Made by a program: the position numbers and the translations under genes | Shown: positions 28,896-33,774 of the stretch, piece by piece | Layout: every line of letters begins with the position of its first letter | How positions within the stretch are numbered: the stretch's first letter is position 1 | The notes under the pieces: model-generated | The model's database searches: none | What the model was told of the DNA's origin: nothing | Seen by the model: the letters and a program-made list of their open reading frames with translations, nothing else | Source of the DNA: Gammaproteobacteria bacterium | Lineage (GTDB): Bacteria > Pseudomonadota > Gammaproteobacteria > Steroidobacterales > Steroidobacteraceae | DNA: 40,604 nt | Assembly (NCBI GenBank): GCA_030038755.1 | Contig: JASHSK010000295.1 | Coordinates: 1 to 40,604 of the forward strand | Direction: 5' to 3'

Positions 28896-29420
28896 CTAAG
28901 GGGCCGACCGCATCGGACCCGGCGACAGTTTCTCGAGCTGCTGCTGTACCGCGCTGCGAAACTTCAGTGGGTGCGCAATCTTATGGAACGGCTCGGAGGT
29001 GCCACCGGTGCCGATCACCGTGATACTTCCATAGCCCAGCATTCTGCCGATCGTCGGCTCGCTGACCTCGATCGCCTCGACCTTGTTCAGCAGCAACTCG
29101 ATCGTCCTGCGGCTCAGGAGGCCCTGCTTGACCACGACCCGGCGGGTCGTGACGGCCATTTCAGTCGCGCTTCGGCGCACCGCACCCGCCAGGATCGCCA
29201 CGACGCCGCCGGCGAACAGGGCGGCCACGCCGCCCTGCATGAGATGCCGGCTGGTGTCCGCGAAGCGCTGCTGATTGAGCAGGTAGAAGCTCAGCAGCGC
29301 ACCGCCCATGGCAAACAGCAGAGCGCCGAGCAGCACATGCCGCAGCATCACGATCCAATGCAGGCGTGTCTGGTAGACGATCGCCTCCTGCGGAATCAGG
29401 TTTGACTCGATATAGCTCAC
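28896..29420 (-). CDS. PH-domain (bPH2-type) membrane protein
   Basis: Two TMs then MAVTTRRVVVKQGLLSRRTIELLLNKVEAIEVSEPTIGRMLGYGSITVIGTGGT; GTG start overlapping the upstream gene by 4 nt. Confidence 0.8.
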   Translation of the reverse strand: MSYIESNLIPQEAIVYQTRLHWIVMLRHVLLGALLFAMGGALLSFYLLNQQRFADTSRHLMQGGVAALFAGGVVAILAGAVRRSATEMAVTTRRVVVKQGLLSRRTIELLLNKVEAIEVSEPTIGRMLGYGSITVIGTGGTSEPFHKIAHPLKFRSAVQQQLEKLSPGPMRSAP

Positions 29421-30079
29421 GTCAGCACCCGGCGCACGGCGATTCCCGCCAGCACGATCAGGGCCACGGCAGACAGATGCAGCGCCAGGTCGATCACGGT
29501 CACATCGAACGGATGAAAGAATTCCAGCACGAAGGCGGCCAGTGCCGCGACGCCCAGAGTTGCCAGGGCCGCGACGCGCAGCGGTGCGATCGGTCGGGCA
29601 CGCCGCAGTACCCAGAACAGCGCGGTGGCGAGCGGGACGCTCACGCCGACGATGAAGACGAAGCAGTGGGGACTGTCGCCGAGAAAGCCGCCGGGGCCGT
29701 GCAGGCTCCAGCCGTTCTGCAGACAGCCCAGGCCACTGCCGGCGAGCCACAGAGCCAACGGCGGCACGGGGAGCGCCGCCCACCAGCGCGAGCGTCCCGG
29801 CACCGAGCTGACGAATGCGGCGAGCACTGCCGTGACGGCGGTCACACCGGTAGCGGCGCACTCCAGCGCGCGGCGTGGCACCGCCATGCGTGCGAGGAAG
29901 GTGTGCCAATCCGCGAACAGGTACAGCGCCATGCCGACCAGCACGAAGACAGTCGCGAGCCACAGCGTGGCGCGCACGGCCGGAGGGCGCAGGCGATGTA
30001 CCGGCTGCAGGTCCGCAGAGAGCTTGCGGATGAGTCGTTCGGTGAGCGCCGATTCGGTCTGTACACCCGGCTCCATCAT
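29417..30079 (-). CDS. DUF1109/NrsF-family predicted anti-sigma membrane protein
   Basis: About six TMs, next to an ECF sigma factor; MMEPGVQTESALTERLIRKLSADLQPVHRLRPP start, typical of NrsF-like proteins. Confidence 0.82.
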   Translation of the reverse strand: MMEPGVQTESALTERLIRKLSADLQPVHRLRPPAVRATLWLATVFVLVGMALYLFADWHTFLARMAVPRRALECAATGVTAVTAVLAAFVSSVPGRSRWWAALPVPPLALWLAGSGLGCLQNGWSLHGPGGFLGDSPHCFVFIVGVSVPLATALFWVLRRARPIAPLRVAALATLGVAALAAFVLEFFHPFDVTVIDLALHLSAVALIVLAGIAVRRVLT

Positions 30080-30690
30080 CGGCCCTCCGACACGAGCCCG
30101 CGCAGCCTGCGCAGGGCGCGATGCACATTGACCTTCAGCGCGCCGACCGTCTGACCGCTGGCCAGCGCCGCCTCTGCAAGACTCATCTCCTGAAGCTTGA
30201 GCATCCGCAACGCCTCCCGCTGGCGCGCGGGCAGACGTTGCAGCAGCTCGGCGAGCCGTGGGCCGGCCGACGCAGCCTCTTCGGCGGCCTGCGCCGTGTC
30301 GGTACGCTCCTGCAGCTCGCCCGCCTCGTCGAGCTCGAGCGGCGTGAGCTCGACAGTTTCGTGGCGACCGATGCGTGTGCGCCGCCGCAGACCGTCGATC
30401 GACCGCCGCATGGCGATGGCGGTCAGCCACGGCAGAAAGGGGCGGCGCGGATCATAGGTGTGACGCACACGGTGCACCGTGAGCAATGAGTCCTGTACCG
30501 ACTCCTCGACGTCGGCCGCGTTCTGACAATGACGCCGGGCACAGGCTCGCACGATCGGAATGATCCGCCGCAGCAGTTGATCGTAGGCGTCCCGATCGCC
30601 CTCCTGCACCGCGCGCATCAGCTGCCGAAGTGCGTCGTCCTGCCGCCGGACGGTGTCTTCGTCGGTGCGCGCCGCCGTCTCGTCCTGCAT
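30076..30690 (-). CDS. ECF RNA polymerase sigma factor
   Basis: AYDQLLRRIIPIVRACARRHCQNAADVEESVQDSLLTVHRVRHTYDPRRPFLPWLTAIAMRRSIDGLRR (region 2) and LPARQREALRMLKLQEMSLAEAALASGQTVGALKVNVHRALRRLR (region 4). Confidence 0.93.
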   Translation of the reverse strand: MQDETAARTDEDTVRRQDDALRQLMRAVQEGDRDAYDQLLRRIIPIVRACARRHCQNAADVEESVQDSLLTVHRVRHTYDPRRPFLPWLTAIAMRRSIDGLRRRTRIGRHETVELTPLELDEAGELQERTDTAQAAEEAASAGPRLAELLQRLPARQREALRMLKLQEMSLAEAALASGQTVGALKVNVHRALRRLRGLVSEGR

Positions 30691-30750
30691 CCGGTCAGTG
30701 TACTGCAGGGTGATTGATCCGGGGCAGGCCAGCGGCAGGCTCATATCGGC

Positions 30751-31278
30751 TCAGGAATCGGCGGCGCGAGCGCGTCCGAACCCACTCCACACCAGAGCAT
30801 GGTCGAGCGACAGCGCTCCGGGCCCGAGCGCCATGATCGCGAGGGCCAGGCCAGCCCAGGGCAGGTGGAAGTTGGCCCACCCGTCAGGCACGGTGAGCTG
30901 GATCACCCCGGTCATGATGAGCAGGCCGAGCGCGCTGAAGCGTGTCGCGAGCCCGAGCACCAGCAGCACCGGCAGGCCGATTTCGGCCACCGCGTCGATG
31001 TGGGCCAGCAGGTCGGGGGCCGGGAAGGGGAAGGTTCTGCCGAACAGATGCAGCTGGAACTGTGCCTCGAACAGGTACTGAGCCGTCGGTGAGAGCGTGA
31101 GGAAGCCGCTCCACTTGGTGAGGCCGGACCGAAAGAACGGGACGGCGAGTGCCACGCGCAGCACCACCGGAGCGATGAGCGTGGCGGCCGCGCCGAGGCG
31201 CAGGGCGATGTGATGCGTGCGCTCGATCAGCCCGCCGCTGCGCGCAGCTGACGTTCCATTCCCGGAGGCTACGGCCAT
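30751..31278 (-). CDS. DoxX-family membrane protein (bufferin/gig operon-type)
   Basis: LRVALAVPFFRSGLTKWSGF, AEIGLPVLLVLGLATRFSALGLLIMTGVIQ; starts within the end of the upstream gene. Confidence 0.85.
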   Translation of the reverse strand: MAVASGNGTSAARSGGLIERTHHIALRLGAAATLIAPVVLRVALAVPFFRSGLTKWSGFLTLSPTAQYLFEAQFQLHLFGRTFPFPAPDLLAHIDAVAEIGLPVLLVLGLATRFSALGLLIMTGVIQLTVPDGWANFHLPWAGLALAIMALGPGALSLDHALVWSGFGRARAADS

Positions 31279-33155
31279 GGCGTTGCTCCCGTGCCCGTGT
31301 CCGCGCTCGTCTCGCCCCGCTGGCGGTGCCTGTCTCGCGAGCGCGTCACCGCGCCCAGGCTGCGCATGGCACGCGCTTCCAGCGAGAAACCCTGCAACGC
31401 GCCGCTGTCCAGCAGGAGCGCCAGATGCGCGGCCAGGTCGAAGCCGCTCGGATGCCCCGCGCGCGCCACGGTGGCCGCGGCCGCCGCTGCTGCGTCGGCC
31501 AGCGTCTGCCCGCGTGCCAGCGAGCGCAGAAACGCTCCCCCGCCGGCCGGCAGGGCGCGCACCTGTACCTCGGCCTCAGGTCGTGCCAGCAACGCGTCTT
31601 CCCCGCCGGCGCTGAGGTCGATCGGCGGCGGTGCGGCACTCGCCACATTCGTCCGCCAGATCGTGAGCGCAGGGTAGGGCGAGTGCACCCAGCGTACCGA
31701 AGGATGCAGCGTGAAGCGGATCTCACCGGACCGTTCGCCCGGGACGTGCGCGAGCGCCTGCGGATTCAGCGCGGCAGAGTCGGGGGCATGATAGGCCGTA
31801 AGCCACGCACGCTCGATCCGTGCGACGTCGGCCAAATAGGGCAGCGATGCCGCGGGCGCGAAGCCTGCGATGAAACGCGGAAACCCGGCGCCGTATTCCC
31901 ACAGCATCGGGGAGCGGGGCGGGTGGGCCGTCGCGTAGGTGCCTGCCATGGCGCGAAAGAAGCGTTTCCCCACGAGCCGGCAGACCGCCGGAAAGCCGGC
32001 CTCGAGCGCCTCCATCAGGCTCACGGCGACATTGTTGCGATAGACACGGAAGCGCCGTGGACAGGCCTGGCCGTCCGGCCCCTGCACGCCCAGCGGCGCA
32101 CTCCAGGCGTCGTCGAGCAGCGCGCGCGCGAACCCGTGCTGTCGCCGCGCCAGCGAGGGCGCCTCGGCGGCGATGCGGATCGGGAGAGCGCGGCGGGGAG
32201 GGCTGGCGAGGGGCAGCGCGCGCGCGGCGCGCGGCGGCATGCGGTTGGCGTCGGCAGCTGCGCGCAGCACCGTATCGGCACGCTGCGCCTCGCCCGCCAG
32301 CGTGGGCCATGCCGGCACGCTCGCATCCCATTCGATCAGGGTCGGGGTGGGACCGAGGCGGGCAATCACCTGCTCGTACAGGCGCCATACGCGACCTGCG
32401 ACCGGGCGATCGTGCGTGTCGACGAGCAGCGGCTGTCCGTGATCATCGTGGCTGCGCCGGTGACCGGCCAGATGGATTTCGCGCACCTGTGCGAGCGGAT
32501 AGTGCGCCAGGTAGCTCTCCGGGTCCCAGCGCTGATTCGTGCAGGAGATATGCAGATTGTTCACGTCGAGCAACAGCGCGCAGCCGCAGCGGCGCACGAT
32601 CTGCGCGATGAAATCCCATTCCGCGTAGGAGCTCTCCGCGAAGGCGACGTAGGTGGATGGATTCTCGAGCAGCAGCTGTCGACCGAGCGTCTCCTGCGTC
32701 TCGTCGATATGGCGCACGACGCGACGCAGCGTTTCGGCGGTGTAGGGCAGCGGCAGCAGATCGTCGAGGAAGGCCGAGCCATGCGACGACCAGGCCAGAT
32801 GTTCGGAGAACAGCGCCGGCTGATAGCGATCCAGCAACGCGCGCAGACGCCGCAGATGACGGCGGTCCAGCGCTCGAGCCGCGCCGATCGAGAGCCCGAC
32901 CCCGTGCAGCGAGAGCGGATAGTGCTCGCGGACCGCCGTCAGATAGCGGTGTGGCGGCCCCCCCGCTCCCATGTAGTTCTCGGCGTGCACCTCGAAGAAG
33001 CCGACGGCGGGGCGGTGCTCGAGGATGGTCCGATAGTGCGGCGCCTTGAGACCGACGCCGGCGCGCGGCGGCAGCGGGTGCACCACCGGCGCGGCAGGGG
33101 GCGCGGCAGCGGGCGAGGTCGCGGCGCTTGGCGTGGCGGTCATGCGAGTGTCCAT
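31269..33155 (-). CDS. Fused DUF692 (MNIO, BufB-like) - DUF2063 (BufC-like) bufferin maturase
   Basis: N-half: GVGLKAPHY, FFEVHAENYM, LSLHGVGLSIG, FSEHLAWSSHG, LLLENPSTYV, LLLDVNNLHIS, IHLAGHRR, LLVDTHDRPV, LIEWDASVP. C-half: RRFRVYRNNVAVSLMEALEAGFPAVCRLVGKRFFRAMAGTYATAHPPRSPMLWEYGAGFPRFI. Confidence 0.92.
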   Translation of the reverse strand: MDTRMTATPSAATSPAAAPPAAPVVHPLPPRAGVGLKAPHYRTILEHRPAVGFFEVHAENYMGAGGPPHRYLTAVREHYPLSLHGVGLSIGAARALDRRHLRRLRALLDRYQPALFSEHLAWSSHGSAFLDDLLPLPYTAETLRRVVRHIDETQETLGRQLLLENPSTYVAFAESSYAEWDFIAQIVRRCGCALLLDVNNLHISCTNQRWDPESYLAHYPLAQVREIHLAGHRRSHDDHGQPLLVDTHDRPVAGRVWRLYEQVIARLGPTPTLIEWDASVPAWPTLAGEAQRADTVLRAAADANRMPPRAARALPLASPPRRALPIRIAAEAPSLARRQHGFARALLDDAWSAPLGVQGPDGQACPRRFRVYRNNVAVSLMEALEAGFPAVCRLVGKRFFRAMAGTYATAHPPRSPMLWEYGAGFPRFIAGFAPAASLPYLADVARIERAWLTAYHAPDSAALNPQALAHVPGERSGEIRFTLHPSVRWVHSPYPALTIWRTNVASAAPPPIDLSAGGEDALLARPEAEVQVRALPAGGGAFLRSLARGQTLADAAAAAAATVARAGHPSGFDLAAHLALLLDSGALQGFSLEARAMRSLGAVTRSRDRHRQRGETSADTGTGATPWP

Positions 33156-33186
33156 GTGTGCGTCATCCCTCGAGTCGGCACGGCGA

Positions 33187-33214
33187 CTGCGGCGGCCCGG
33201 GGGCGCCGCCGCAG
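33187..33214 (-). promoter_or_regulatory. Intercistronic GC hairpin between precursor and maturase genes
   Basis: CTGCGGCGGC / GCCGCCGCAG perfect 10-bp stem with 8-nt loop. Confidence 0.6.
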
Positions 33215-33227
33215 CGCGCCGCCGGTC

Positions 33228-33581
33228 TCAGGTCGACTTCGGGCTCAGGCTGCCCGGACCCTTGGGCGTGTGAATCGAGGTGCAGGTGCCCTTGGGAACC
33301 AGTTTGAAAGCGTTACCCTGGTAGTTCGCCGTGCTGGTCGCCGCGCAGGTGGTGCCGGGCCCCGCGTAGCAGTCGTTGTGACCGGCCAGTGCCACGCCGT
33401 AGCACTTGTCGAATTTGCCGGTATTCAGACGCTCCGCGGTCATTTTCATGTTCTTTTCCATCATCATCTGCATCTGCTGCGGTGTCTCGGCGGCCCCGGC
33501 AACTGACGGCAGCGCGACGAGGGATCCCAGCGCGGCGGCGAGCGCGCCGGCGACCAGGGCGGATGTGGCTCGATTGGACAT
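33228..33581 (-). CDS. bufA: DUF2282-family bufferin precursor (BufA/GigP-like RiPP precursor)
   Basis: Signal peptide, Met-rich segment, core [43 protein letters not shown] with 4 Cys. Confidence 0.9.
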
Positions 33582-33659: not shown

Positions 33660-33684
33660 TTCGCCGCAGAGGCGCGGAGGTTAC
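33660..33684 (-). promoter_or_regulatory. Candidate ECF-sigma promoter upstream of the bufA-like gene
   Basis: Minus-strand reading GTAACC-N15-CGAA (gtaacctccgcgcctctgcggcgaa), about 80-100 nt upstream of the bufA ATG. Confidence 0.5.
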
Positions 33685-33774
33685 AGACGCACCTGTGGCG
33701 CCGCCCGCGGGGCGTGATGCGGCGGCGCCGTTCAGAACAACGTCGGCAGCGGCGGCCTGAGCCGCGCTCGGGGG

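Follow-up and report, generated by a model that had tools for sequence, protein, structure and literature searches.

In bufferin operons the MNIO enzyme BufB and its DUF2063 partner BufC are usually two proteins. Within a stretch of 40,604 nucleotides from a member of the Steroidobacteraceae (the window), a single open reading frame appears to encode both, which raises the question of whether this protein is real, where it came from, and what joining an enzyme to its partner would bring. The reading we favour, with a probability of roughly 0.8, is that of a probably horizontally acquired Buf1 operon whose bufB and bufC genes have merged, and which would be induced by copper stress, mature BufA with a tethered enzyme and buffer copper in the periplasm.

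The operon and its fused maturase gene

Six genes follow one another on the minus strand, with the coordinates and Pfam families that a preliminary description had suggested. The first, bufA (33228-33581), encodes a 117-aa DUF2282 (Buf1) precursor (PF10048, 7e-23) and is separated by a 72-nt gap from bufBC (31269-33155), a single ORF for a 628-aa fusion of MNIO with DUF2063-RRE. The next gene, doxX (30751-31278), overlaps bufBC by 10 nt and encodes a DoxX-family membrane protein (PF07681, 5e-17; 54.8 bits against the HvfX model, under its cut-off of 80). A 6-nt gap leads to an ECF sigma factor gene with sigma-70 regions 2 and 4 (30076-30744; Pfam and NCBIfam), which overlaps by 4 nt (ATGA) with nrsF (29417-30079), the gene for a membrane anti-sigma NrsF/DUF1109 protein (PF06532, 5e-18), whose start was picked from this very overlap. 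A further 4-nt overlap (GTGA) joins nrsF to a gene for a membrane protein with a bPH_2 domain (28896-29420; Pfam bPH_2, 5e-14). Several junctions had been said to overlap by 4-10 nt, and the overlaps measured are indeed 10, 4 and 4 nt. What did not stand is the place of the PH-domain gene in the set: since a homologue was found in none of the related bufferin loci fetched, this gene is probably a neighbour, likely outside the bufferin system, and not one of its conserved genes. An Rfam search found no RNA elements in the window.

The fused product divides into an MNIO (BufB) catalytic domain (residues 32-297, 32265-33062, minus strand; MbnB_TglH_ChrH/DUF692 in Pfam, 1.5e-105), a linker rich in Ala, Pro and Arg (residues 298-337, 32145-32264), a DUF2063 domain forming the N-terminal part of BufC (residues 338-429, 31869-32144; PF09836, 1.6e-25) and a C-terminal RRE-type region of BufC (residues ~430-600, 31356-31868), which was delimited by alignment with split BufC and by its fold match to TglI and 3dee. 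Against the MNIO_BufB equivalog NF050167 (cut-off 310) the MNIO half reaches 388 bits, while the partner half, which its DUF2063 match and fold place with the DUF2063-RRE partners of PME type 1, obtains 30.6 bits against the HvfC model, under the cut-off of 142. The proposed DUF692-DUF2063 fusion is thus borne out by HMMs that assign both halves, and the locus passes the HMM tests for a bufferin-type system (DUF2282, MNIO_BufB and DUF2063). The genome, 86% complete, holds one MNIO match and one DUF2063 match, both in the bufBC ORF.

A missed stop or a frameshift between the domains would have been the obvious objection, but over bufBC residues 276-360 all three forward frames proved free of stop codons. 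The split relatives usually have bufB and bufC close together, often with an overlap in which bufC uses a different frame, and in some the two share a frame with one stop between them. Where BufC begins, the split relatives have the BufB stop within GCTGGCTGA, and the window reads CGCTGGCGC at this place, a difference of more than one base; the linker of bufBC, about 40 residues long (40-42), also exceeds its counterpart in the split locus L041 by 74 nt. Because of the stop-free frames, the altered stop site and the extra linker nucleotides, a one-base error is insufficient, and correcting a single base cannot, judging by these sequences, turn the fusion into the usual split layout. It is very improbable that the organism has two distinct genes and that a draft of 376 contigs lost a stop or shifted a frame. 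In favour of such an artefact, the near relatives are all split, many of them with the two genes in different frames, and the fusion in the window is the only one in its own clade; against it stand the features just listed and the presence of this architecture, unbroken, in finished genomes of another genus. At the level of sequence, then, the bufBC fusion is confirmed. Separate translation of BufC from an internal start (ATG at codon 306 or GTG at codon 296) was also considered and judged unlikely, there being no obvious Shine-Dalgarno sequence upstream of either.

All candidate metal-ligand motifs named in the preliminary description are present, and the fused sequences keep the conserved His, Asp, Glu and Asn residues of the MNIO domain. 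Across 125 MNIO sequences, fused and split together, conservation is 1.00 (rounded) at each of E55, N60, H84, H119, E164, N165, D197, N200, H228, D246, H248, E275 and D277. An AlphaFold2 model of bufBC (mean pLDDT 83.7, pTM 0.83) predicts two folded domains joined by a disordered linker, with residues 307-332 mostly below a pLDDT of 50 and the termini disordered as well. The MNIO half matches the folds of 3bww (TMt 0.89), TglH and MbnB, which are also its matches by sequence. The partner half, modelled alone (pLDDT 90.7), matches TglI (8hi7_A) and NGO1945 (3dee) in fold; a profile search of this half against PDB sequences gave nothing useful. TglHI and MbnBC (8hi7, 7tcr) therefore resemble the window protein in the fold of the MNIO half, and TglI also in that of the partner half, but they consist of two chains and act on other precursor types with other chemistry. 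How the two domains are placed relative to each other is a prediction, made from 19 aligned rows in which homologues were read past a stop. For alignment, the fusion was set against single-frame homologues read through one stop, and a joint alignment with separate MNIO and DUF2063 rows was dropped because its partner rows were misaligned (21-29% identity).

Regulation and predicted chemistry

Among the closest known counterparts of the locus is the Buf1 operon, as in Caulobacter (CC3252-CC3257), which shares with it the four-Cys DUF2282 precursor, MNIO_BufB, the DUF2063 partner, DoxX, the ECF sigma factor, NrsF and a sigma-F-type promoter. The window departs from such operons in that BufB and BufC are one protein, separateness being usual but not defining, and in that the sigma and nrsF genes follow downstream on one strand with the rest, an order also found in many rhizobial relatives. 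The gig operon, unlike the window, encodes MNIO and DUF2063 as separate genes. PMC12452194 regards this operon (gigPABT; Cupriavidus metallidurans, Legionella) as actually belonging to the bufferin gene clusters.

A candidate promoter of the ECF16/sigma-F type, TGTAACC-N15-CGAA (33660-33685, minus strand), sits ~80 nt upstream of bufA and is the one match in the window, against 0.02 expected. It matches the Caulobacter SigF consensus GTAACC-N16-CGAA (PMC3511200) with a spacer one nucleotide shorter. Of 55 split loci bearing a sigma gene, 17 have the same motif ahead of bufA, a count somewhat inflated by loci that are the same sequence fetched twice, compared with 0.0016 per shuffled 400-nt region. 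In addition, the ECF sigma gene adjoins nrsF, as the SigF-NrsF (ECF16) regulon requires. Among 22 aligned NrsF proteins, an alignment without that of Caulobacter, one Cys is common to all, probably the counterpart of C131 in the Caulobacter pair C131 and C181. The subclade of the window NrsF is without the C-terminal Cys kept in other NrsF proteins, and most of its members carry a different Cys, which lies ~20 columns before the common one; this altered pattern is seen in the window nrsF together with L002, L025-L050 and L126-L129. The pattern suggests a rearranged metal-sensing Cys pair, and with a different Cys in place of an equivalent of the C-terminal one, sensing may differ in these proteins.

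The SigF regulon, with bufferin genes in it, is induced by copper, and a sigF mutant is copper-sensitive (PMC8224329). An operon serving some other stress, be it gold, silver, chromate, cadmium or oxidative, is in our view unlikely. The altered Cys pattern of NrsF would fit such a role, as would the induction of Caulobacter SigF by Cr and Cd (PMC3511200) and the behaviour of the gig operon, which is induced by Au, Ag and Cu but has no effect on Cu resistance in C. metallidurans (PMC8224329). However, the sigF mutant is Cu-sensitive, whereas for Cr and Cd its sensitivity profile was similar (PMC8224329), and characterised MNIO-PME1 systems install 5-thiooxazoles and yield products that generally bind Cu (PMC13097082).

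Under copper-responsive control, copper-type metal stress would inactivate the membrane anti-sigma NrsF, and the freed ECF sigma factor would transcribe the operon from TGTAACC-N15-CGAA. The BufA so produced has a signal-like hydrophobic segment at its N-terminus (residues 5-31 by hydropathy) and four Cys, at 60, 71, 79 and 100, in columns common to its homologues; in Buf1, according to PMC12452194, modification falls on the central Cys, and the outer two are disulphide-bonded. The DUF2063-RRE half would hold this precursor, Sec signal region included, and feed it to the tethered MNIO, whose iron centre would use O2 to convert Cys71 and Cys79 to 5-thiooxazoles, while Cys60 and Cys100 would form a disulphide. 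After export by Sec the product would serve as a periplasmic copper buffer, and DoxX would play an accessory part. We infer the copper function and induction, the peptide chemistry and any benefit of tethering from relatives of this locus.

Distribution and origin of the fusion

In the genomes surveyed, fused BufBC is rare overall and yet near-universal in one genus. None of the 80 nearest named relatives has it. Samples of 369 genomes at class level and 396 at order level yielded, among the long-frame candidates in the matches listed, at least one further true fusion, that of genome G274 from another family. A profile built from the fusions of the window and G274 led to genome G1037 in a phylum sample and from there to its genus, g383, in which 42 of the 43 MNIO-bearing genomes carry an unbroken MNIO-DUF2063 ORF; in the one exception (L198) the fused gene is broken by a frameshift inside the MNIO part. 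The DUF2282 precursor adjoins the fusion on its upstream side in nearly all of them, and in examples of the fusion both domains were confirmed by Pfam and NCBIfam. Genus g383 is Burkholderiales-like, its rRNA operon being nearest to those of Cupriavidus and Burkholderia among plasmid records. The 12 further candidates of the phylum search were all split, and plasmid records held only two-gene pairs among the annotated matches listed; candidates chosen by open-frame length proved mostly split once they were tested as true stop-to-stop ORFs. The fusion is thus not unique to the window, being near-universal in g383 and present in a third lineage.

Linkers of fused BufBC are low in complexity, mostly rich in Ala and Pro, and not conserved, with lengths of 28-86 residues in g383, 57 in G274 and 42 in the window. 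Among the g383 loci L143, L146-L150 and L162-L197, DoxX lies next to the fusion in L178 only, and g383 loci have no matching sigma gene within the stretches examined, so that theirs is apparently a two-gene bufferin unit. Some split loci (L026, L027, L031, L033, L034, L036, L037, L043, L044, L051 and L055) have ~1 kb between MNIO and DUF2063, which leaves room for an inserted gene and possibly corresponds to the adjamnio-VI type of PMC12452194.

Three switches between the split and the fused state are required on a tree of 125 MNIO domains, and well-supported branches force each of them, although G274 sits on a long branch and its placement is less sure. The BufBC fusion has arisen independently at least three times. 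The MNIO domain of the window falls in a clade of 43 rows (SH-aLRT 96) in which split loci, rhizobial, burkholderial and others, predominate and some members of the source family are found. It is 72% identical to that of Mesorhizobium, against 46-52% to congeners. One congener (G010) has a different, split locus, and in another (G009) no MNIO match was found. Because the locus groups with rhizobial-type loci and not with its own genus, it was probably acquired horizontally, and such acquisition followed by fusion is the simplest reading. The glpK gene, which precedes the operon in window coordinates, argues against a foreign contig, being 65-83% identical to its matches in two same-genus genomes. 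Many rhizobial loci, among L002-L023, have bufB and bufC in one frame, with just one stop codon keeping them apart, so that a single mutation, or readthrough, would give a fusion. From a same-frame ancestor like L002, with a spacer and one TGA, the fusion could have arisen by mere loss of the stop.

An enzyme tethered to its partner

Natural fusions of MNIO with DUF2063 are absent from the main text of the MNIO survey PMC12452194, which does list an MNIO-nitroreductase fusion and bufferin fusions, and we found no description of them in the open-licence literature. The architecture thus seems to have escaped notice in print and not to be missing from sequence databases. MovX is cited as an MNIO with a C-terminally fused RRE (PMC13419390); like the window protein it joins the enzyme to a recognition domain, but the window has the full DUF2063 domain plus the RRE. 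Another close parallel is an artificial fusion of the related HvfBC pair (PMC13419390, a 2026 preprint), in which the MNIO likewise precedes a DUF2063-RRE partner in one chain. That fusion is engineered, has no linker and acts on an oxazolin (EGKCG) substrate, whereas the window's is natural, with a linker of ~40 aa and a Buf1 substrate. With the artificial fusion the product was fully modified and activity was markedly higher than with co-expressed HvfB and HvfC; the mixed-valent iron state was seen only when HvfC was there (PMC13419390). Because an artificial fusion of the same domain order outperformed the co-expressed pair, the natural BufBC fusion is likely to be active. By this analogy, covalent joining would fix enzyme and partner at 1:1 and secure the contact needed for the active mixed-valent iron state, which gives the stoichiometry argument of the preliminary description an outside parallel.

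Whether tethering was selected is harder to judge. We hold, tentatively and at somewhat less than even odds, that covalent BufBC is a repeatedly evolved adaptive architecture, in which an MNIO locked with its partner would always have the mixed-valent iron available and be dedicated to its own precursor, and which would have replaced the two-protein Buf1 system almost totally in one genus. Alternatively, stop loss or an indel may have joined the genes into a protein that works like the pair, with no advantage from tethering. This is a serious contender, if on balance doubtful: little is needed where many rhizobial relatives are one stop codon from a fusion, the linker is of low complexity and not conserved, and there are just three changes among 125 sequences, but the near-universal retention across g383 and the higher activity of the artificial fusion speak against it.

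For either course of evolution, what these proteins offer to the study of the family is the same. Weak interaction between enzyme and partner hampers work on the role of the partner in MNIO enzymes, and the authors of PMC13419390 had to build their HvfBC fusion by hand. The independent natural fusions are ready-made single-chain MNIO enzymes, and fused against split, or long linker against short, they provide a natural comparison for the role of the partner.
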